The notes beneath the pieces were generated by a model, which did no database searches, was not told the DNA's origin, and was given only the letters and a program-made list of their open reading frames with translations. The position numbers and the translations under genes are program-made. Of a DNA stretch of 64,000 nucleotides, positions 2,717 to 18,695 are shown piece by piece. Position 1 is the stretch's first letter. Every line of letters starts with the position of its first letter. The stretch comes from Virgisporangium ochraceum (GTDB lineage Bacteria; Actinomycetota; Actinomycetes; Mycobacteriales; Micromonosporaceae), in the NCBI RefSeq assembly GCF_016863655.1, contig NZ_BOPH01000006.1, forward strand, positions 1-64,000. Direction: 5' to 3'.

Positions 2717-3173
2717 ACGGCTCCGTCGACGTGAACCCCTGGCTCTCGTAGTAGCCCACGAGGGCCCGGTCGTCGCCGGCGTAGCAGTCGACCCGCAGCA
2801 GTCCCACTCCCCGCTCGCGCGCGATCGCGCGGGCCTTGTCGAGCAGCGCCGTGCCGATCCCGCTGCCCTTGCGCGACCGGTCGGTGAGCAGCAGGTTGAC
2901 GTACAGCTCCGGCTCAGCCGGTACCGACACGTAGTCGGGTGCGTCACCGACCGCCAGCGCACCCACCGCGACGCCGTCGATCTCGGCGACGTACAGGCTG
3001 CCCGACCGCGCCCACCCCGTCGCCTGCTCGTGCCGCCGCGGGTTGCCCGTCGCCGGTTCCGTGCCCCACTGCCCGGAGCGGCCGTGGGCCACCAGCCACA
3101 CGACCGCCTTGTCGAACAGACCCAGCAGGGCCGGCACGTCGTCGACGCCGCCGGGCCGGATCGTCAGCGTCAC
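2658..3173 (-). CDS. GNAT family N-acetyltransferase
   Basis: 171 residues with one GNAT domain. The acetyl-CoA pyrophosphate-binding motif appears as RKGSGIG at about residues 101-107, and the C-terminal YYESQGF is typical of the fold. The acceptor substrate is unknown. The GTG start overlaps the stop of the DUF4037 gene by 4 bp (GTGA), so the two are likely translated together. The 3' end overlaps the DUF2809 gene on the other strand. Confidence 0.85.
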   Translation of the reverse strand: MTLTIRPGGVDDVPALLGLFDKAVVWLVAHGRSGQWGTEPATGNPRRHEQATGWARSGSLYVAEIDGVAVGALAVGDAPDYVSVPAEPELYVNLLLTDRSRKGSGIGTALLDKARAIARERGVGLLRVDCYAGDDRALVGYYESQGFTSTEPFTVDLPGGAWPGQVLAQRL

Positions 3174-4201
3174 GGCCGGACTCCCAGCAGCGGTGCCACG
3201 CGTTCCCTGTTCACGGCGGACAGTATGTCAGTCGAGTCGACCGCCTGGTCCACCGTTCCGACGGGCCGCGCGAGCAGGGCCCGCACGTCGGGATCGGTGA
3301 TCGCCGCGGCGAGCGCTCCGGTGAGCCGCCCCGCGCCGAGCACGCGGATGTCGCGGTCGTGGAACGGCCGCGGGGTCGCCTCCACCGGCTCGCACAGGCG
3401 CAGGTCGTTGGTCGCGGCCGCGAGAACGCCCGCGGCCGCGACCAACGCGGCCTCGCGGTCGCGCCACCGGGACGCGCTGAGCACCGCCTCCAGTCCATTG
3501 TGGACACTGGCACCGAGCCGCAGGTCGCGGAACGCCCGACCGAACCACTTGCCGTACGGGGCCCACTCCCGCTCGATGAGGAACGCCAGCCGCATCAGGT
3601 CGCGCACGAGCCTGGTGGCGAGGATCCGCGAGCCGAGGTCGTCGCCGCGGGCGCCGGTGCGGCCCACGAACGGCTCCTCCTGGTCGACCCGCCACCATCC
3701 GGCGGCCAACGCGTACCGCCACACGTCGTCGGGGTACCACCCCAGGGCCTCGCGCCGGCGGGCCAGGTCGCCCGCCGGGTCGTGGAAGACGGCGCCGGCG
3801 GTGAGCGTGCGCAGCACCTGCGTCGGTGCCAGCACCCAGTCGGCCACCGCCATGCCGCCGGCCGGGTCGGTGCCCAGGTGACGCCGGAAGAACCGCCCGG
3901 GTGTCGTCACCTCGACGTGGTGGTCGACCACCTCGGGCGTCCGGCTCAGGCCGTACCGGACGGGGAAACCGGCGAACTCGGCGGGCAGCGCGTCGAGCCG
4001 CCCGGCCACCGGACCGACCTCGTCGGGCGCGGCCACGAAGACCTGCACGCGGGGGCCGAAGTCGTGGTCGGTGGACACGTCGTCGTCGAACCCCAGCACC
4101 TCGGAGCCCGGGCCCAGCAGCGCCGCGGCGTGCGGTACCCCGTCGAGCAACGGCGCGACGGCCTCCCGGTAGAACGCCTCCGCCAATCCCAACCCGCGCA
4201 T
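3170..4201 (-). CDS. DUF4037 domain protein, nucleotidyltransferase-like
   Basis: 343 residues. The N-terminal part carries a nucleotidyltransferase-like signature (GSEVLGFDDDVSTDHDF, about residues 32-48), followed by a helical DUF4037 region (for example EREWAPYGKWFGRAF). The family resembles minimal or kanamycin-type nucleotidyltransferases, but no substrate is established. It is the first gene of a two-gene unit with the acetyltransferase. Confidence 0.8.
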   Translation of the reverse strand: MRGLGLAEAFYREAVAPLLDGVPHAAALLGPGSEVLGFDDDVSTDHDFGPRVQVFVAAPDEVGPVAGRLDALPAEFAGFPVRYGLSRTPEVVDHHVEVTTPGRFFRRHLGTDPAGGMAVADWVLAPTQVLRTLTAGAVFHDPAGDLARRREALGWYPDDVWRYALAAGWWRVDQEEPFVGRTGARGDDLGSRILATRLVRDLMRLAFLIEREWAPYGKWFGRAFRDLRLGASVHNGLEAVLSASRWRDREAALVAAAGVLAAATNDLRLCEPVEATPRPFHDRDIRVLGAGRLTGALAAAITDPDVRALLARPVGTVDQAVDSTDILSAVNRERVAPLLGVRP

Positions 4202-4304: not shown

Positions 4305-4967
4305 GTGAGACGGGTACACCCGCCCGGCGGCGACGCGGAACTGCCGCCCGGGGTCGAGGTCTACTCGTTCCCGGCCGACGGCGCGGCGATTCGCCGCACT
4401 CGTGCCGGCGTGGCCGAACCCGACGGCTTTCTCCCGTTCATCGACTCGGGGCAGCGGGCCCGGTACTTCGTCGGCGACGCCTCCACCTCACCGGAGCGGC
4501 CGAGCAACGCCACGTACAAGCTCGGTGTCGTGCGGCCGCACAGCGCCTTCACCCCGCACGCCCACGGCGGCGAGCACTTCGTGCTGAGCCTCGGCTACGC
4601 CTCGTGCGGCCTGTACGACCAGCACGCCGAGCGCGCCGTACGGGTGTCCCTGACGCCCGGCACGCTGATCCGGATCCCGGCGCTGATGCCGCACTCGTTC
4701 GGCAACCGCGCCGGCAGCCCGCTGCTGATCCTCGCCGCCAACACCGGGTTCGGCATCGACCACGAGGACTACGCGATCACCGCGTCCGACGCCGAGGCGC
4801 GCGGCGCCGAACCCCGTGACGCCGGCGCTCCGGTCGACGACTTCCCCCGGCTGGCCAAGGCGCTGCGGGCACTGGAGTCGGCCAACGACCCGGGCGCGAT
4901 GACGTTGCGTGAGCGGCTTGCGAGCCGGCTGCGCCGGGCCGCGCACCGGTTGGAGGCACCACGATGA
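4305..4967 (+). CDS. Cupin domain protein, first gene of a five-gene operon
   Basis: 220 residues. A cupin barrel is indicated by PHAHGGEHFVLSLG at about residues 84-97, which has the His/Glu pattern of a metal site, and by a second strand set ending IPALMPHSFGNRAG. The C-terminal 50 residues are charged and helical and do not belong to the cupin. The GTG at 4305 is the start that gives a compact protein. The stop overlaps the next start as ATGA. No substrate can be assigned. Its place at the head of an operon ending in an amide-forming enzyme suggests a role in processing or sensing a small molecule (inference). Confidence 0.8.
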   Translation: MRRVHPPGGDAELPPGVEVYSFPADGAAIRRTRAGVAEPDGFLPFIDSGQRARYFVGDASTSPERPSNATYKLGVVRPHSAFTPHAHGGEHFVLSLGYASCGLYDQHAERAVRVSLTPGTLIRIPALMPHSFGNRAGSPLLILAANTGFGIDHEDYAITASDAEARGAEPRDAGAPVDDFPRLAKALRALESANDPGAMTLRERLASRLRRAAHRLEAPR

Positions 4968-5968
4968 TCTGTCCACACTGCCAACAGAACCTGAAGTACA
5001 AGGAACGCGGCGGGCAGACCTGCGGTTCCTGCCGCAAGCGGTTCGCCCTCGAGCCGCGGGACAACAAGATGCGCCTGCACGACGTCAAGCTGATGCGGTT
5101 GTCGCAGCAGCTCGGCGGCAACGGCGCCTACCGGTACACGGTCGGCCAGCTCCACTACAACGCGTCCCGCAAGAACGTCCGGAGCAAGGGCGAGTTCCCG
5201 CTGGGCTTCCTGATACTCAACGTGCTCGTCGCCATCGTGCTCGCCGTCGTCGCCGTGATCGGCGACATCCCGTTCCTGCTGATTCCGGCGGGGGTGTCGG
5301 TTCTGGGGTGGACGCTCTACATCGTGTACCGCGTCACCACGCGCCGAAGCCGGCGGATCGACCCGCCGCTGACCCGCGACCAGTTCCGGCAGCTCGCGGT
5401 CGACGGCTGGCGGAAGACGTACGGACAGGACCTGCCCGGGCTGGTCCGCGACCACGAGCTGTCGAACCTGCCCGAGCACTCCTCGACGCCGGTGCTCGCG
5501 GTGCTCGCGCCCGACCGGGGAGCGCTGGCCGCGCTGCGGGTGAACGACGTCGTGAACCGCGACCGGGTGACGCTCGTCCACTCGTTCGACCAGGTGCCGC
5601 CCGGTGTGCCGATCGCCCTGCTGCACGACATCAGCGTGGCCGGGTACGTCTACGCCGGCCGGGCCCGCGCGGAGTTCGGGTCGCGCGTGGTGGCCGACCT
5701 GACGCCGCGTCCCAAGGCCGCCCGCGGCGCGAAGGCCGCGCTGCGCCTGCTGCAGCCGTGGCCGCCGGACGAACAGGTTGCCTGGCTGCGGGCCAGCCGG
5801 CTGCTCGACGACGACGAGGTCGACTGGCTGTCCAAGGGCTGGTGGACGCCGATCGAGTCGGTGCGGTCCTCGAACGTGGTCGGCCGCCTGCGCGCGGTCC
5901 TGCGCCGCAACGCCGACCCCGACGAGCGTGCCGCCAGCGCGGTCGGGTTCATGAGCTGGCCGTCGTGA
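4964..5968 (+). CDS. Zinc-ribbon membrane protein of unknown function
   Basis: 334 residues. The N-terminus is a four-cysteine zinc ribbon (C3, C6, C20, C23). Two membrane helices follow at about 79-99 and 102-123, then a cytosolic-looking domain of about 200 residues. That domain contains a beta-strand/loop pattern PVLAVLAPDRG (about 176-186) and LLHDISVAGYV (about 219-229). A similar pattern occurs in the next gene (RVLVCQHRD and VYVLHDTG), suggesting that the two share a related nucleotide- or phosphate-binding fold (inference). It overlaps both neighbours by ATGA and TGATG. I do not recognise a named family. Confidence 0.75.
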   Translation: MICPHCQQNLKYKERGGQTCGSCRKRFALEPRDNKMRLHDVKLMRLSQQLGGNGAYRYTVGQLHYNASRKNVRSKGEFPLGFLILNVLVAIVLAVVAVIGDIPFLLIPAGVSVLGWTLYIVYRVTTRRSRRIDPPLTRDQFRQLAVDGWRKTYGQDLPGLVRDHELSNLPEHSSTPVLAVLAPDRGALAALRVNDVVNRDRVTLVHSFDQVPPGVPIALLHDISVAGYVYAGRARAEFGSRVVADLTPRPKAARGAKAALRLLQPWPPDEQVAWLRASRLLDDDEVDWLSKGWWTPIESVRSSNVVGRLRAVLRRNADPDERAASAVGFMSWPS

Positions 5969-6693
5969 TGCTCGAGAAAGCGTTGGGACGCGCGGTGCGC
6001 CGGGCCGGCGCGCCGGGCGGGATCCTGTTCACCGAGCGGCAGCTCTACTTCGAGCTGTGCCGCGGCCTGCAGCCGCTGACCCGCGTGCCACGCCGGCCGA
6101 GGTTCACCGTGCCGGCCCCGATCGGGTACGCCCGGTTCGAGCGCCTGCTGGGCCGCTGGAACGGCGAGGTGCCCGGCCTGCTCACCGCACCGCGCCGGCC
6201 GGCACCGGCGCCGTCGCCGGAGGTGTTCGGGTACGGCCTGCCCCGGGTGCTCGTGTGCCAGCACCGCGACATCGCCGACATGCTGCTCGCCAACGGCCTG
6301 CACATGGAGTCGGTCTGCCCCGTGTTCGCGGTCGACGACCTGCCGCTCGACCCGCGGCTGCGCGCCGCGGTGGAGGCCGCCGCCGGCCGGGTGTACGTGC
6401 TGCACGACACCGGCCCGGCCGAGGCCGCCACCGTCGACGCCGTCACGGCGTGGGCCGACGGGGTTCCCGTGGTGCCGCTCGGCCTGCGCCCGGTGCACGC
6501 GCGGGCGCTGCACCTGCCCCGGGTCGGCGCCACGGCGGAGGTCGCCGCGGTCAACCCGGCCCGCCTGCTGCGCACCGTCCACCGGCTCGTCCGGGAGCAG
6601 TACCGTCCGCGCCGGTCGCTGACCCGGCTGCCCCGGTTGCGCAGCCTCGCCGCCACCGGTTACCTCAGCTGGCCCGATCCCGGAGCGCTCTAA
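5968..6693 (+). CDS. Unknown soluble protein, possibly with a degenerate Toprim-like fold
   Basis: 241 residues, no membrane segment. The N-terminal FTERQLYFELCRGL (about 21-34) has the look of a small winged helix. The middle reads RVLVCQHRDIADMLLANGL (about 93-111), then VYVLHDTGPAEAATVDAV. This order resembles topoisomerase VI-A/Toprim proteins, but the acidic catalytic residues expected of Toprim are not in place. The comparison is therefore tentative and any nuclease role is doubtful. The start is ATG 5968 (TGATG overlap); a GTG one codon upstream is equally possible. The stop TAA directly abuts the next ATG. Confidence 0.7.
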   Translation: MLEKALGRAVRRAGAPGGILFTERQLYFELCRGLQPLTRVPRRPRFTVPAPIGYARFERLLGRWNGEVPGLLTAPRRPAPAPSPEVFGYGLPRVLVCQHRDIADMLLANGLHMESVCPVFAVDDLPLDPRLRAAVEAAAGRVYVLHDTGPAEAATVDAVTAWADGVPVVPLGLRPVHARALHLPRVGATAEVAAVNPARLLRTVHRLVREQYRPRRSLTRLPRLRSLAATGYLSWPDPGAL

Positions 6694-7182
6694 ATGTCCT
6701 ATCGCGACGTGACGTTCACCGACGAACTGCTGTCCGACGGCAGCGTGCACCGCCGGTTCTCCGACGGCCGCGAGGAGTGGCGGTGGCGCGGCCAGAACCG
6801 GCAGGTGCTCTGGCGTGACAACACCGGAGCCACCGGTGCCGACGAACTGCTGGGCGCCCGCATCATCAAGCGCACCTTCGCCGACGGGCGGGTGCTCTAC
6901 GGCCGCGACCAGGGCTACGGCCGCACGGCCTGGGGCGACCGGACCCTCACGGTGAACCGCACCTCGTTCGGCGGCCGCGCCGGGCGGCTGCTCGCGGCGG
7001 CCGGCGTCGGCTTCGCGCTGGGCGCGATCGTCGCGCCGCCGCTGGCGATGTCGTTCGCGGAGGAGGAGGAACTGCGCCAGCAGGCGCAGCAGGCCAGCCA
7101 GTCGAGCGGCGACAGCGGTGGCGGCGACGACGGCGATTCGTGGAGCGACGACGGCGGCGGCTCCGACGACGACTTCGGGTGA
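6694..7182 (+). CDS. Small single-span membrane protein with Gly/Ser/Asp tail
   Basis: 162 residues. The first 90 residues are soluble and carry loosely repeated 'DG(S/R)V' elements. One membrane helix lies at about 97-119. Then comes a Gln-rich EEE-linker and a low-complexity acidic tail (about residues 138-162) of Gly, Ser and Asp ending FG. Such a tail next to an ATP-dependent amide-forming enzyme could be a substrate or scaffold (inference). Low-complexity acidic tails are also common in ordinary membrane proteins. The ATG follows the preceding stop with no gap. Confidence 0.7.
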   Translation: MSYRDVTFTDELLSDGSVHRRFSDGREEWRWRGQNRQVLWRDNTGATGADELLGARIIKRTFADGRVLYGRDQGYGRTAWGDRTLTVNRTSFGGRAGRLLAAAGVGFALGAIVAPPLAMSFAEEEELRQQAQQASQSSGDSGGGDDGDSWSDDGGGSDDDFG

Positions 7183-7192
7183 GGGGCTGACG

Positions 7193-8824
7193 ATGCCACG
7201 GTTGTGGGCCGACGGGTCGGGGCTGCGGTTGCTGGAGGGCGTGCCGGGCAACGCCCACGGGCCGGTGCGCGTCGGCGGGCTGACGGCCGTCGGCGAGGTC
7301 ACCCTCCACAATGGACGCACGTTGCGCGCGGCCCTCGGCGCCGACGTGCCCGACGGCTGTTCCGACACCGAACTCCTCCTCCGGGTGTGGGCGACGCTCG
7401 GCACCGCCGGCCTGAGGCTGGCCGACGGCATGTTCGTGCTCGCGATCGCCGACGGCGAGGACCTCGTGCTGATCCGCGACCACGTGGGCGCCCGCACGCT
7501 GTTCTACGGGCACGGCACGGCGGGCTGGTGCGTGTCCACCAGCCTGCTGGCGCTGCGACGCGCGCCGAACCTGCGCACGGGCCTGAACCTCGACGCGGTC
7601 CGCTCGTTCCTCACGTTCGCCTACCTCCCCGGCGACGAGACCCTCGTCGCCGGGGTGCGCGAGGTGCTGCCGGGACGCGTGCTGCGCCTGCGACCCGACG
7701 GCGCGGAGGCCGACGAGGTGTTCTGGGAGCCCGAGGAGCGCATCGTCGACGCCGACGACCATCCGCGGCGGCTGCGGGCGCTGCTGGAGGAGGCGACCGC
7801 GGCGCGGCTGCCCGCCGGCGAGCAGGTGGGGGTGCTGCTGTCCGGCGGCATCGACAGCAGCCTCGTCACCGCGCTGGCCGCCAAGCTGCACGACCAGACC
7901 GTGCGGACCTACTCGATCAGCTTCGGCTCCGACCTGCCCAACGAGCTGGCCTACTCGGGCCTGGTGGCGACGCACTGCCACACGACCCACTCGGTGCTGA
8001 ACGTACCGGGCGAGACGATCGCGGCCCGGCTCGCCGAGACGGTCGCGCTGCTCGACAGCCCGGTCGGCGACCCGCTCACCGTGCCCAACCTCCTGCTCGC
8101 CGAGGCCGCCGCGGCCGACGGGCTCAGCGTCGTGCTGAACGGCGAGGGCGGCGACCCGGTCTTCGGCGGCCCGAAGAACCTGCCGATGCTCATCTTCGAA
8201 CTGCACCGGGAGGACAGCGCGCCGCTCGCCCGCGCGACGGCGTACCTGCGCTCGTACCGCAAGTGCTACGAGGACCTGCCGGTGCTCCTCACCCCGGCCG
8301 CCCGCGAGGCGTCGGCGCCACTGGAACGGTTCGTGCAGCCCTACCTCGACGGCCCGATGGACTCGCTGCTGAACCGGTTGCTGCACTGCAACCTGCGCAC
8401 CAAGGGCGCACACCACATCCTCACCAAGGTCGAGCGGCTCACCGCCGCCCGCGGGCTGCGGGGCCTGGCACCGCTGTTCGCGCCGGCGGTGATCGACCAC
8501 GCGTTCGCGGTTCCGCCGCGCCTGAAGCTCGCCGGCACCTCCGAGAAGTGGGTGCTCAAGGAGGCGGTGCGCGACCTGCTCCCCCGCACGATCGTCGACC
8601 GGCCGAAGAGCGGGATGCGGGTGCCGGTGCAGCAGTGGCTCAGCGGTCCACTTCGGACACTCACGCAGGAGGTACTGCTCGACCGGCGGTCGCACCCGCT
8701 CTTCGACGTGCGCACGGTGCGGTCGTGGCTGCGCGGCGAGGGCGCGTTGCTGCCGCGCCAGGGCGGGAAGCTGTGGCTGGTCCTCACCCTCGAGCTGTGG
8801 CTGCGGGCCTACGACCTGGTCTGA
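7193..8824 (+). CDS. Asparagine synthetase-like protein lacking the glutaminase cysteine
   Basis: 543 residues. The N-terminal half has the Ntn-type glutaminase-like fold of class II asparagine synthetases, but the mature Cys that must follow Met1 is absent (it begins M-P-R-L). It should therefore not release ammonia from glutamine. The C-terminal domain has an intact ATP-pyrophosphatase loop, LLSGGIDSSLVTALA, at about 215-229. Family knowledge: cysteine-less members include beta-lactam synthetase and lasso-peptide cyclase, which make an amide from a bound amine and an adenylated carboxylate. Such a ligase role is inferred here. The ATG at 7193 has an upstream GAGGGG, and the preceding gene ends 10 nt before. 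Confidence 0.85.
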   Translation: MPRLWADGSGLRLLEGVPGNAHGPVRVGGLTAVGEVTLHNGRTLRAALGADVPDGCSDTELLLRVWATLGTAGLRLADGMFVLAIADGEDLVLIRDHVGARTLFYGHGTAGWCVSTSLLALRRAPNLRTGLNLDAVRSFLTFAYLPGDETLVAGVREVLPGRVLRLRPDGAEADEVFWEPEERIVDADDHPRRLRALLEEATAARLPAGEQVGVLLSGGIDSSLVTALAAKLHDQTVRTYSISFGSDLPNELAYSGLVATHCHTTHSVLNVPGETIAARLAETVALLDSPVGDPLTVPNLLLAEAAAADGLSVVLNGEGGDPVFGGPKNLPMLIFELHREDSAPLARATAYLRSYRKCYEDLPVLLTPAAREASAPLERFVQPYLDGPMDSLLNRLLHCNLRTKGAHHILTKVERLTAARGLRGLAPLFAPAVIDHAFAVPPRLKLAGTSEKWVLKEAVRDLLPRTIVDRPKSGMRVPVQQWLSGPLRTLTQEVLLDRRSHPLFDVRTVRSWLRGEGALLPRQGGKLWLVLTLELWLRAYDLV

Positions 8825-12032: not shown

Positions 12033-12050
12033 ATCTGCGATATGGCAGAT
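12033..12050. promoter_or_regulatory. 18-bp palindrome upstream of the DUF6232 gene
   Basis: ATCTGC and GCAGAT flank a 6-nt AT-rich spacer, about 90 nt before the DUF6232 start and about 80 nt from the divergent metallo-hydrolase start. The spacing is that of a regulator binding site rather than an RNA hairpin. The regulator is unknown. Confidence 0.5.
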
Positions 12051-12136
12051 TGGGTTCTAGCCATCCGAGTGGTCGCATCGCATACTGGCGGCAGCCCCCA
12101 CACCACCGGTCACAAAACGTGAACGGAGGCACCACC

Positions 12137-12562
12137 ATGACCGTCTTCTACCGAAGCAGGGATCTGGTGATCAGCGAGAGCGAGTTCGTGGCGCTTCTCG
12201 CAACAGAACGATTCGCGCTGGAGGACCTGCGCGGAATTCACATCGTGCGCGGGAACCCCGATCCGCGGCGTCGCAGTATCACCCACACCTTTGCGGGAGC
12301 GTTGATTCTGGCCGTGGCGATCGGCCCCATTCTCGACTCACCGGCGGCCTGGGCAGTGGCGGCCCTGGCGCTCGTCGGATCGGCCGGGTTCGGCGGCGCG
12401 TCCATCGTCGCCAGGAGGCCGCGTTGGCAGCTCAACGCCGAGCACCTCGGCTCGGCGATCTGCCTGTACTCGACCACCGACGAACTCACGTTCGGCCAGG
12501 TCAGGCGGGGACTGCTGCGCGCGCTCGAAGCCGGCGGCCACGTTCACGCGGTCGCCCGGTAG
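12137..12562 (+). CDS. DUF6232 family protein with two membrane helices
   Basis: 141 residues. A short N-terminal domain (FYRSRDLVISESEFVAL, then YALEDLRGIHIVRG-like text) is followed by two hydrophobic helices at about 55-95 and a soluble C-terminal part. This is the layout of DUF6232 proteins, common and uncharacterised in actinomycetes. The start ATG 12137 is supported by GGAGG at 12125-12129. Confidence 0.75.
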   Translation: MTVFYRSRDLVISESEFVALLATERFALEDLRGIHIVRGNPDPRRRSITHTFAGALILAVAIGPILDSPAAWAVAALALVGSAGFGGASIVARRPRWQLNAEHLGSAICLYSTTDELTFGQVRRGLLRALEAGGHVHAVAR

Positions 12563-14345: not shown

Positions 14346-14449
14346 ACGGCAGAAGAACAGACATTCCCCCCAGCCACCGGTTCGAGTCGGTGGAAGTGTC
14401 ACCCCTCCTGGGTACGGTCGAATGCAGGACCGACCCCAGGGAGGGATCG

Positions 14450-15661
14450 ATGACCATCACGGTCGACGGCACCGCCGTCGTCAACTCGGTGGCCGACGCG
14501 GAGGGCTACATAGCCCGGGTCTGTTTCAAGACGGGCCCTCCGGAGAGCACCGGCGTCGAACTGGAGTGGACCGTCCACCATCGCGACGACCCGGCCCGGC
14601 CACTCGACATCTCCGCACTGCGGGCCGCACTCGGCCCACACGCACCACTCAGCATTGACAGAGACAGCCCGGCAGCACCCCTTCCCGGGGGCAGCCCCGT
14701 CACCGTCGAGCCCGGCGGTCAGGTGGAGATCTCCACCCCGCCCGCGGCGTCACCGGCCACCCTGTACCAGCGGGTCGAAGCCGACATCGCCGCCCTGCAA
14801 GGGCTCCTCGCCAGGCACGGCCTGGTACTCGGCCGCAACGGCATCGACCCGCACCGGCCACCGGCAATCGTCGTACAGACCCCGCGCTACGCGGCGATGA
14901 CGCACGCGTTCCAGCCCTACCGGCCGTACGGCGACGCCATGATGCGCAGCACCGCCGGCCTGCAGGTCTGCGTCGACGCGGGCGTCGACCCCACCGAACG
15001 GTGGCGGGCGCTGCACACGCTCGGTCCGGCGCTGCTGGCCGCGTTCGCCACCTCGCGTCGTCACGCCGGACACGACACCGGGTGGGCGTCGGCGCGGATG
15101 CGCGCGTGGCTGCGGCTCGACCCGAGGCGCACCGCGCCCGTGTACGCACAAGGCGGATCCGTGACGGCCGACGCCTGGGTGCGGTACGCGATGTCGGCGC
15201 CGCTGCTGTGCGTGCGGCGCGACGGCGACCGCTGGAAGGCACCGCCGGATTCCACGTTCGCCGACTGGATCGGCGGCGCGCTCGACACCCCGCCGACGCA
15301 CGACGACCTGTCCTACCACCTCACGACGCTGTTCCCGCCGGTCCGTCCGCGGGGCTACCTGGAGGTGCGCTACCTCGACACCCAGCCACCGGGCGAGTGG
15401 ATCGCTCCGGTCGCCGTCGTCATGTCCCTGCTGTCCAGCTCCGACACCATCGCCGAGGCCGAGAGACGCGCGGCTCCGGCGATCGACCGGTGGGAGGCCG
15501 CCGCCCGTCACGGCACGGCCGACCCGGCGATCGCCGACGCGGCCCGCGGGCTGCTCGCGCTCGCGCTGGAGAACCTGCCGGTCGACACGCCCGGCCAGGC
15601 CAGCGACCTCATCCGGCGACGTCTCGACAGCGCAAGAGGAACGGCAGGGGAAACGGCATGA
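14450..15661 (+). CDS. egtA: Ergothioneine biosynthesis glutamate-cysteine ligase EgtA
   Basis: 403 residues. The N-terminal VCFKTGPPESTGVELEWTVHH carries the ELEW active-site strand of GCS2-type ligases, and FQPYRPYGDAMMRSTAGLQVCVDAG matches EgtA. It makes gamma-glutamylcysteine, the sulfur donor used by EgtB. GGGAGGG just upstream fixes ATG 14450. The stop overlaps egtB by ATGA. First gene of the egtABCD operon. Confidence 0.93.
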   Translation: MTITVDGTAVVNSVADAEGYIARVCFKTGPPESTGVELEWTVHHRDDPARPLDISALRAALGPHAPLSIDRDSPAAPLPGGSPVTVEPGGQVEISTPPAASPATLYQRVEADIAALQGLLARHGLVLGRNGIDPHRPPAIVVQTPRYAAMTHAFQPYRPYGDAMMRSTAGLQVCVDAGVDPTERWRALHTLGPALLAAFATSRRHAGHDTGWASARMRAWLRLDPRRTAPVYAQGGSVTADAWVRYAMSAPLLCVRRDGDRWKAPPDSTFADWIGGALDTPPTHDDLSYHLTTLFPPVRPRGYLEVRYLDTQPPGEWIAPVAVVMSLLSSSDTIAEAERRAAPAIDRWEAAARHGTADPAIADAARGLLALALENLPVDTPGQASDLIRRRLDSARGTAGETA

Positions 15662-16965
15662 CCATCGACACCGAACGGCTGCGCTCGCGCGTCGCCGAGG
15701 AACTGATCCGCACCCGTGACCGCACCACGTACCTCACCGACGCCGTCGACGACGACGACCTGGTCCGGCAGCACTCGCCGCTGATGTCGCCGCTGGTCTG
15801 GGACCTGGCCCACGTCGGCAACCAGGAGGAGCTGTGGCTGGTGCGTGACGTCGGCGGTCGCGACCCGGTGCGCGCCGACATCGACGAGCTGTACGACGCG
15901 TTCAAGCACGCCCGGGTCAACCGTCCGGGCCTGCCTTTGCTGAGTCCGGCCGAGGCGCGGGGCTACGTCGGCCAGGTGCGGTCGAAGGTGCTCGACCTCG
16001 TCGACAGCGTGCCGCTGGAGGGCAGACGGCTCACCGAGAACGGCTTCGCGTTCGGCATGATCGTGCAGCACGAGCAGCAGCACGCCGAGACGATGCTCGC
16101 CACCCACCAGCTCCGGTCGGGTCCGGCGGTGCTCGCGGCGCCGCCACCTCCGGAGCCCGGCACCGCCGTGCGTGGCGAGGTGCTGGTAACCGGTGGCCCG
16201 TTCACGATGGGCACCTCCACCGACCCGTGGGCGCTCGACAACGAGGGCCCGGCACACGAGGTGCACCTGCCGCCGTACTTCATCGACGCGGCACCGGTCA
16301 CCAACGCGGAGTACCGGGCCTTCGTCGACGCCGGCGGCTACGACGACGAGCGCTGGTGGACCGCGGAAGGCTGGCGGCACCGCCGCGACGCCGACCTGAC
16401 AGCGCCGATGCACTGGAACAGGGACGGAACGTACACCCGGTTCGGCGTCACCGGGCCGGTGCGACCCGACGAGCCGGTGGTGCACGTCTGCTTCCACGAG
16501 GCGCAGGCGTACGCGCGCTGGGCCGGCAAGCGCCTGCCCACGGAGGCCGAGTGGGAGAAGGCGGCCCGGTACGACCCGGCCACCGGCCGCAGCCGGCGCA
16601 ACCCGTGGGGCGACGACGACTGGACGCCCGAACGCGCCAACCTGGGGCAGCGCCACCTGGCACCGGCGCCCGTCGGCGCGTACCCGCGGGGTGCGTCGCC
16701 GCTCGGCGTCCACCAGCTGATCGGCGACGTGTGGGAGTGGTGCGACACCGCGTTCCACGGCTACCCCGGGTTCACCGCGTTCCCGTACCGGGAGTACTCC
16801 GAGGTGTTCTTCGGGCGCGACTACCGCATCCTGCGCGGCGGCTCGTTCGGAACCGACGCGGCGGCCTGCCGCGGCACGTTCCGCAACTGGGACTACCCGA
16901 TCCGGCGCCAGATCTTCAGCGGCTTCCGCTGCGCCCGCGACGCCACGCCGGCCGAGGTCGCCTGA
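15658..16965 (+). CDS. egtB: Ergothioneine biosynthesis sulfoxide synthase EgtB
   Basis: 435 residues. The N-terminal DinB_2 domain carries the three iron-binding histidines (H52 in DLAHVGNQEE; H138 and H142 in HEQQHAET). The C-terminal FGE-sulfatase domain ends with the expected RGGSFGT and FSGFRCAR. The enzyme joins gamma-glutamylcysteine to hercynine using oxygen and non-haem iron. It starts within the egtA stop codon (ATGA), and egtC follows after 3 nt. Confidence 0.95.
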   Translation: MTIDTERLRSRVAEELIRTRDRTTYLTDAVDDDDLVRQHSPLMSPLVWDLAHVGNQEELWLVRDVGGRDPVRADIDELYDAFKHARVNRPGLPLLSPAEARGYVGQVRSKVLDLVDSVPLEGRRLTENGFAFGMIVQHEQQHAETMLATHQLRSGPAVLAAPPPPEPGTAVRGEVLVTGGPFTMGTSTDPWALDNEGPAHEVHLPPYFIDAAPVTNAEYRAFVDAGGYDDERWWTAEGWRHRRDADLTAPMHWNRDGTYTRFGVTGPVRPDEPVVHVCFHEAQAYARWAGKRLPTEAEWEKAARYDPATGRSRRNPWGDDDWTPERANLGQRHLAPAPVGAYPRGASPLGVHQLIGDVWEWCDTAFHGYPGFTAFPYREYSEVFFGRDYRILRGGSFGTDAAACRGTFRNWDYPIRRQIFSGFRCARDATPAEVA

Positions 16966-16968
16966 CGG

Positions 16969-17724
16969 ATGTGCCGGCACCTGGCCTACCTCGGGCCTCC
17001 GCTGCCGCTCGCCGCGCTGCTCCTCGACCCGCCCCACTCGCTCGCAAAGCAGAGCTGGGCGCCGAAGGACATGCGCCGCGGCGGTGTGGTCAACGCCGAC
17101 GGGTTCGGCGTCGGGTGGTACCCGCCCGGCGCCGACGCGCCCGTCCGGTACCGCCGTGACTGTCCTATCTGGACAGATGCGGCGCTTCCGGCGCTCGCCC
17201 GTGCGACGAGCGCCGGCGCGGTGCTCGCCGCGCTGCGCAACGCCACCGTGGGCATGCCCGTCATGGAGACGGCCGCCGCGCCGTTCACCGAAGGGCCGTG
17301 GCTGTTCAGCCACAACGGCGCCGTCGCGGGCTGGCCCGACTCGGTGGTCGGGCTCGCGGAGACGCTTCCGGTCCGCGACCTGCTGACCCTCGACGCGCCC
17401 ACCGACGCGGCGTTCCTGTGGGCACTGGTGCGCCACCGGCTCCGCGCGGGTACCGGCCTGGCGGAGTCCATTGTGGACACTCTCCACGAGATCGTGGCCG
17501 TGGCACCGGAGTCACGGCTCAACCTGCTGCTCACCGACGGCCGCACCGTCGTCGCCACCGCCTGGTGGCACGCGCTCTCGGTGCGGGTCGACCCCGGCAC
17601 GAGCACCCTGATCAGTTCCGAACCGCTCGACGACGACCCCGCCTGGCGGGCCGTTCCCGACCGGCACGTGGTCACCGCCACCGCCGGCGACGTCGACGTT
17701 CGTCCTCTGACCGAAGGAACCTGA
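16969..17724 (+). CDS. egtC: Ergothioneine biosynthesis amidohydrolase EgtC
   Basis: 251 residues. A class II glutamine amidotransferase-type domain with the catalytic Cys at position 2 (MCRHLAYLG) and [10 protein letters not shown]. It removes the gamma-glutamyl group from the EgtB product. The start is immediate after the egtB stop, and the stop overlaps egtD (TGATG). Confidence 0.95.
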
Positions 17725-18695
17725 TGACAGCCGAACCCCTGCTGTACCTCATTTCCGACGACGACATCACCCGGGCCCTGCGCGACGACGTGCGGTCCGG
17801 GCTCACCGCCAGTCCCAAGGTGCTGCCACCGCGCTGGTTCTACGACGCCCGCGGCAGCGAGCTCTTCGAGGAGATCACGCGCCTGCCGGAGTACTACCCG
17901 ACCCGCGCCGAGCGGGCCATCCTCACCGAGCGGGCCGCCGAGATCGCCACGGTCACGCGCGCGAAGACGTTGGTGGAGCTGGGATCCGGCTCGTCCGACA
18001 AGACCCGGCTGCTCCTCGACGCGCTGAGCCGCATCGGCGAACTCGGCGCGTTCGTTCCGCTCGACGTGTCGGCGAGCGCGCTGGAACAGTCCACAGTGGA
18101 CATCGCGGACGCCTATCAGGGCATCAGCGTGCGCGGCGTGGTCGGCGACTTCACGCGGCACCTGTCCGCGCTGCCGGCCGGGGGCAAGCGGCTCGTCGCG
18201 TTCCTCGGTGGCACCATCGGCAACCTGGTGCCCGACGAGCGGGCGTCGTTCCTGCACGCGCTGCGGGCCGAGCTCGACCCCGGCGAGTGGCTGCTCCTCG
18301 GCACCGACCTGGTGAAGTCGCCGCACGTGCTGGTGCCCGCCTACGACGACGCGCGAGGGGTCACGGCCGACTTCAACCGCAACGTGCTGCGGGTCATCAA
18401 CCGCGAGCTCGGCGCCGACTTCGACCCCGACGGCTTCCAGCACGTGGCGATCTGGGACGCCCGCCGCGGCTGGGTCGAGATGCGGCTCCGGGCGTCGAAG
18501 GCCTACCGGGTGACGGTGCCGGCGCTCGACCTCACCGTCGACTTCGCCGAGGGCGAGGAGCTGCGCACCGAGATCTCGGCGAAGTTCCACCCCGACGGCG
18601 TCAAGGCGGAACTGGCCGCGGCCGGGTTCACCGCCACCCGGCGGTGGACCGACAGCTACGGCCGGTTCCTCGTCACGCTGGCACAGGCCAGCTGA
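17724..18695 (+). CDS. egtD: L-histidine N-alpha-methyltransferase EgtD
   Basis: 323 residues. YYPTRAE near residue 55 (histidine-binding region), SAM-binding [12 protein letters not shown] and FLGGTIGNL are all present. It trimethylates histidine to hercynine, the first committed step. It is last in the operon; no egtE (PLP C-S lyase) follows, and the next gene is on the opposite strand with its stop one base after the egtD stop. Confidence 0.95.

Follow-up and report, generated by a model that had tools for sequence, protein, structure and literature searches.

A tightly packed operon of five genes, A to E, lies on the plus strand at positions 4305-8824 of the window (the whole 64,000-nucleotide stretch of Virgisporangium ochraceum DNA that was analysed) and belongs to a four-to-six-gene module that is conserved in distant genera of soil actinobacteria. 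Three of the protein families in this module (B, C and D) are without a curated model, which points to an undescribed biochemical process. We regard the system as new in the sense that the libraries and open-access papers covered here contained neither a described system that matched it nor a description of the gene set; the word does not imply proof of a mechanism. The operon would act as one functional module around E, a putative ATP-dependent amide-bond ligase whose own ammonia source appears to be lost. The reading that we place first, with a probability of about 40%, is that E may adenylate the tail of D and join this tail to an amine. The features of the operon are:

4305..4967, plus strand: gene A, a single-domain cupin of 220 aa with metal-ligand residues that are invariant in relatives
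4964..5968, plus strand: gene B, with an N-terminal zinc ribbon (CxxC...CxxC), a QL-Y helix and a hydrophobic membrane segment
within 4964..5968, plus strand: C-terminal part of gene B, a putative Toprim-like domain with the terminus GF-WP
5968..6693, plus strand: gene C, a soluble relative of B of 241 aa with a predicted Toprim-like fold and a degenerate catalytic motif
6694..7182, plus strand: gene D, with an all-beta N-terminal domain (residues 4-88), a hydrophobic stretch, a helix and a disordered Gly/Asp/Ser tail
within 6694..7182, plus strand: landmarks of D, namely Trp150 in the tail, the invariant C-terminal Asp160-Phe161-Gly162 and one conserved lysine, Lys59
7168..7182, plus strand: codons of the D-D-F-G-stop tip of D, a terminus covered by the genome-wide pattern search
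7193..8824, plus strand: gene E, an AsnB-like ligase of 543 aa with a cysteine-less glutaminase remnant, an SGGIDSS ATP loop and invariant Glu318 and Lys472

A and B overlap by ATGA at 4964-4967 and B and C by TGATG at 5966-5970; the TAA stop of C is followed directly by the ATG of D at 6694, and a 10-nt gap separates the stop of D at 7182 from the ATG of E at 7193. All five reading frames and their junctions were recovered exactly as the sequence-only reading of this DNA had given them. The minus-strand genes flanking the operon, coding for a DUF4037 protein and a TetR regulator, look unrelated. The DUF4037 protein (3170-4201, minus strand) and a DUF6232 protein further downstream (12050-12562, plus strand) are both of unknown function. 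At 14390-18695 the window also holds EgtA-, EgtB-, EgtC- and EgtD-like open reading frames in a row, a putative ergothioneine cluster.

Scanning species genomes with E yielded 62 loci at about 60-87% identity as well as two remote AsnB relatives; the closest named relative came from Virgisporangium aurantiacum with 87% identity. The order B-C-D-E was kept in about 60 loci, nearly all of those not truncated at a contig edge, with representatives in Streptomyces, Kitasatospora, Actinacidiphila, Nocardia, Rhodococcus, Gordonia, Prauserella, Pseudonocardia, Actinophytocola and Virgisporangium, and also in one Chloroflexota MAG, the locus of which has a GC content of 50%. D and E were adjacent and in this order in the recovered loci. 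Among 394 genomes sampled from the class, B, D and E were each present in exactly the same six; of 246 Streptomyces genomes, 15 carried D, and E was found in precisely these 15. The distribution is patchy, with about 6% of Streptomyces carrying the module, and no sampled genome had E without D and B. Gene order and identical presence patterns thus amount to more than chance. The sequence-only reading had taken the operon for an unrecognised system, had suggested looking for the same gene order in other actinomycetes and had held that homologues occurring alone would speak against it. The order was found in many genera, and the identical presence of B, D and E in the 394 genomes, and of D and E in the 246 Streptomyces, means that homologues standing alone were not observed. 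This all-or-none occurrence, the order kept in distant genera, the lack of a library family for B, C and D and the absence of a paper among those searched together give that proposal strong support. Such patchiness would be seen if the module is acquired and lost as a whole. Co-occurrence of the linked genes is then expected as well, hence it shows a module and not a reaction. Patchiness alone is not evidence for a defence role either; a defence system was considered and rejected, as the PADLOC component models were unmatched but for a marginal QueC match of E (E-value 0.045). Frame breaks in D, E or B were seen in three operon copies (L103 from Streptomyces genome G594, L067 and L062) and possibly reflect decay or sequencing errors. 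One copy comes from an annotated plasmid, for which the record has no gene table.

E matched the Asn_synthase profile with 229.9 bits over positions 2-354 of 354 and thereby shows the full domain that, together with an SGGxDSS loop, marks the superfamily; its SGGIDSS ATP loop is conserved in 60 of 60 relatives. The GATase domain aligned only from profile position 24, the N-terminal cysteine region being missing, and no conserved N-terminal Cys was found among the 60 relatives. E does not have the glutaminase cysteine by which AsnB is recognized, in agreement with its earlier description as an AsnB-like enzyme with an intact ATP loop and without this residue. Glu318 is invariant and aligned with a Glu of the hydroxyamidotransferase 7ylz and a Tyr of the beta-lactam synthetase 1jgt; Lys472, in an RPKSGM motif, is likewise invariant. 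Because of the known chemistry of the asparagine-synthase superfamily, E appears competent to adenylate a substrate and to form an amide, with an amine that it must draw from elsewhere. Among the proteins closest to E in sequence are N-acetylglutaminylglutamine amidotransferase and a hydroxyamidotransferase, and E scored below the cut-off of every NCBIfam equivalog that it resembled. Four further full-length asparagine-synthase-domain genes are present in its own genome.

In the structure model of D, residues 4-88 are all-beta and of high confidence, followed by the hydrophobic stretch at low confidence and then by a helix and a disordered tail. The fold of the beta domain could not be named, since the best VIA matches, with a Z of 7.4 (designed barrels, the anti-sigma factor RsfG and lipocalin-like proteins), were too weak. 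D had been described as a one-span protein with a Gly/Ser/Asp tail. Both the hydrophobic stretch and the tail were found; the span itself is plausible, the stretch being weak, with values below 1.6, in 10 of 61 relatives. The linker of the tail measures 4-75 residues and is hypervariable, consisting mostly of Gly, Asp and Ser, and yet the C-terminus reads Asp-Phe-Gly in all 59 aligned copies. Of 71 distinct translations, 69 have this end, and the other two are frame-broken copies. Lys59 is invariant and is the sole lysine in 42 of 61 proteins. When the pattern [D/E/G]-D-F-G-stop was searched throughout the genome of V. ochraceum (11.4 Mb), it was found only in D, in a divergent paralogue, D', and in one 80-codon frame that is apparently spurious. 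D' occurs in two Virgisporangium genomes, and its tail is rewritten, with the Gly/Ser character gone and the DDFG end kept. It is encoded in a D'-B'-B'' locus without A, C and E, both in the genome studied here (L078:6215-8258, genome C20) and in V. aurantiacum (L102:3962-6062), and only in genomes that also carry E. Judging from these alignments, the invariance of Asp-Phe-Gly despite the hypervariable tail and the retention of DDFG in D' indicate that the tip is under strong selection. The tail is probably the target of E or a docking tag.

The four ribbon cysteines of B (Cys3, Cys6, Cys20 and Cys23) are invariant and its hydrophobic stretch is strong, which bears out its assignment as a zinc-ribbon membrane protein; other loci often carry two copies of B. 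For B, C and D no usable match came from Pfam, NCBIfam, PADLOC or PHROGs, and B had only weak Zn-ribbon matches. Profile comparison with hhalign showed that B and C are homologous (probability 99.8), C having neither the zinc ribbon nor the membrane segment. C had been taken for an unknown soluble protein: it does belong to no library family, yet this profile match makes it a relative of B. The top VIA matches of the AlphaFold model for C (pLDDT 85.7) were TopoVI-A 9o0g (Z 9.5, 136 residues aligned, rmsd 3.4) and the small Toprim protein 2i5r (Z 8.2); there was no sequence-profile match to Toprim, and a Toprim-like fold is predicted for C from this model. Foldseek on C and D returned no E-value below 0.001, and a Topo VI-A family search of the V. 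ochraceum genome returned nothing. The motif HDxSPxG of C, which we take to be the equivalent of the Toprim DxDPxG, allows its catalytic positions to be compared by motif reading: Cys97 occupies the position of the Toprim Glu in 55 of 56 sequences, Asp147 of the DxD is kept, and position 149 is Ser, Gly or Thr in nearly all. By this motif reading the catalytic Glu and the complete DxD of Toprim enzymes are not found in C. With Cys97 in place of the Glu and Ser or Gly in place of the second Asp, classical Mg-dependent nucleic-acid chemistry appears unlikely. Within the Toprim-like motif of B, the codon at 5507-5509 (residue 182) specifies Ala in the window copy versus Cys in 63 of 67 relatives.

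A scored 19.4 bits against Pfam Cupin_2, below the curated cut-off of 27.2. It was nevertheless rightly called a cupin, since the His and Glu metal ligands of the two cupin motifs are present and H85, H87, E90 and H130 (HxHxxEH plus a later His ligand) are invariant in relatives. A was found in 29 of the 62 loci and another gene, F, in 28, with no locus holding both. F (L009:9708-10439 and 27 other loci) belongs to no known family, gave no Pfam or PDB match and stands beside the operon only where A is absent; it adjoins the operon in Nocardia, Gordonia and Rhodococcus, and also in Prauserella, where it lies upstream and on the opposite strand. Its motifs HxH and PRGxxH suggest a putative cupin. 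No homology between A and F was detectable by profile comparison of the small alignments, and weak F matches in A-type loci (59-74 bits) were discounted as the query reading frames run into the 3' end of E. The A/F split largely follows lineage, so that a replacement of one cupin by the other is conjectural. In 26 loci, nearly all from Streptomycetaceae, an aldehyde dehydrogenase gene directly follows E (L007:9625-10956 and 25 others, including most Streptomyces loci and V. aliadipatigenens). The closest NCBIfam model is that of aminobutyraldehyde dehydrogenase, with a score below its cut-off. PDB 9ju5 is a solved close relative, on which no paper was found. The dehydrogenase is missing after E in the window and in all F-type loci, and its best relative in the V. 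ochraceum genome reaches only 47% identity. A, F and the dehydrogenase are lineage-specific accessory genes. The cupin and the dehydrogenase suggest a small amine or aldehyde, compatible with D as a substrate of E and with D as a docking partner, and they leave room for a small molecule; the natural-product role hinted at in the sequence-only reading is possible.

If D is the substrate, E would bind ATP via its PP-loop and adenylate a carboxylate in the acidic tip, either the terminal carboxyl or the Asp side chain of Asp-Phe-Gly, and the activated tip would be joined to an amine other than glutamine-derived ammonia, either a lysine or some small amine. As Toprim-like proteins without the catalytic motif, B and C could keep D and E in contact at the inner membrane face or present the amine partner, which the cupin, be it A or F, and in certain lineages the aldehyde dehydrogenase could make or process; we infer these roles and the nature of the amine. 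There is precedent in the lasso-peptide cyclases, asparagine-synthetase homologues that couple the side chain of Asp or Glu with an amine (PMC10368454). This reading is placed slightly ahead because E has no ammonia source of its own, is always adjacent to D and was never found without it. The earlier suggestion that D serves as acceptor or scaffold gains support from the invariant Asp-Phe-Gly; a chemical link of E to D is conjectural. Against D as a substrate, the tail would be extracellular, away from the cytosolic E, if the hydrophobic stretch spans the membrane in the usual orientation, and an invariant C-terminus of Phe-Gly would suit a binding tip no less than a substrate. It is quite conceivable, and a close second, that the tip is a docking peptide through which a scaffold D recruits B/C and/or E, with E amidating something else. 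The variable disordered linker and the invariant acidic-aromatic tip resemble those of SSB, although SSB tips terminate in Phe and the tip of D in Gly. D' retains the tip next to two B-like genes and has no E in its vicinity, an arrangement that speaks for docking of the tip to B; against this, D' is confined to E-carrying genomes, so E could act in trans. For SSB, docking of partners onto the C-terminal tip is described in PMC10164576.

The cupin and the aldehyde dehydrogenase also speak for a small-molecule pathway, in which E would condense a free carboxylic acid and an amine to a metabolite or osmolyte, these two enzymes would prepare the building blocks, and B, C and D would serve in membrane-linked export, sensing or assembly. 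The mutually exclusive A and F, the dehydrogenase next to E with its aminobutyraldehyde dehydrogenase-like sequence and the amidotransferases among the relatives of E are all in line with it. We consider it unlikely: the flanks show no further classical biosynthetic genes that recur from locus to locus, neither the window nor any F-type locus contains the dehydrogenase, and the strict retention of D with its invariant tip is left unexplained. An ammonia-using asparagine (or similar amide) synthetase, for which the operon is merely convenient housing, would agree with the intact synthetase domain and the Glu at the AsnB position but is highly improbable, given the four other asparagine-synthase-domain genes in the genome and an E that is not found apart from D and B. 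As for D as the substrate of E, the system lends itself to a direct test, having an invariant tripeptide and only one ligase, and if E modifies the tail, the chemistry known from asparagine synthetases would come to include the tagging of proteins at the C-terminus. The more far-reaching claim of a new protein-conjugation system, in which D would be a membrane-associated carrier whose Asp-Phe-Gly tail is activated by E and coupled to a metabolite amine or a protein lysine with the assistance of Toprim-fold pseudo-enzymes, appears doubtful to us; if true, it would constitute a non-ubiquitin, non-Pup route to tagging by way of a protein tail.

Among known systems, the lasso-peptide macrolactam cyclases share with the action proposed for E an AsnB-derived ligase that works on a ribosomal product and joins an activated carboxylate to an amine. 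However, E scored 81.3 bits against a cut-off of 525 for NF033535 and 89.4 against 300 for NF033561 (lasso/albusnodin), D has about 160 aa with a folded domain, and no lasso leader peptidase or recognition element was found among the operon proteins or the recurrent flank clusters covered by a non-exhaustive search. The E. coli peptide-polyamine ligases YgiC and YjfC also place an amine on a peptide carboxyl, a possible parallel in function only, as these are ATP-grasp enzymes (PMC12568646) whereas E is of the PP-loop type. Beta-lactam synthetase and carbapenam synthetase have the AsnB fold, have lost the glutaminase cysteine and share with E the Lys of the RPK motif; the Tyr of the catalytic dyad of beta-lactam synthetase (Tyr348) is replaced in E by the invariant Glu318, at the position of the AsnB general base, and no clavam or carbapenem genes were seen near the operon. 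N-acetylglutaminylglutamine amidotransferase (TIGR03104) is the best NCBIfam match of E, yet with 228.7 bits against a cut-off of 570.1. C resembles topoisomerase VI subunit A and small Toprim proteins in its predicted fold (Z 9.5 and 8.2) and differs from Toprim enzymes at Cys97 and at the second Asp of the DxD, as read from the motifs. Finally, although no sequence relation to bacterial SSB was seen, the tip of D reading DFG and its beta domain being without an identified fold, D shares with SSB a disordered linker that ends in a short acidic-aromatic tip.
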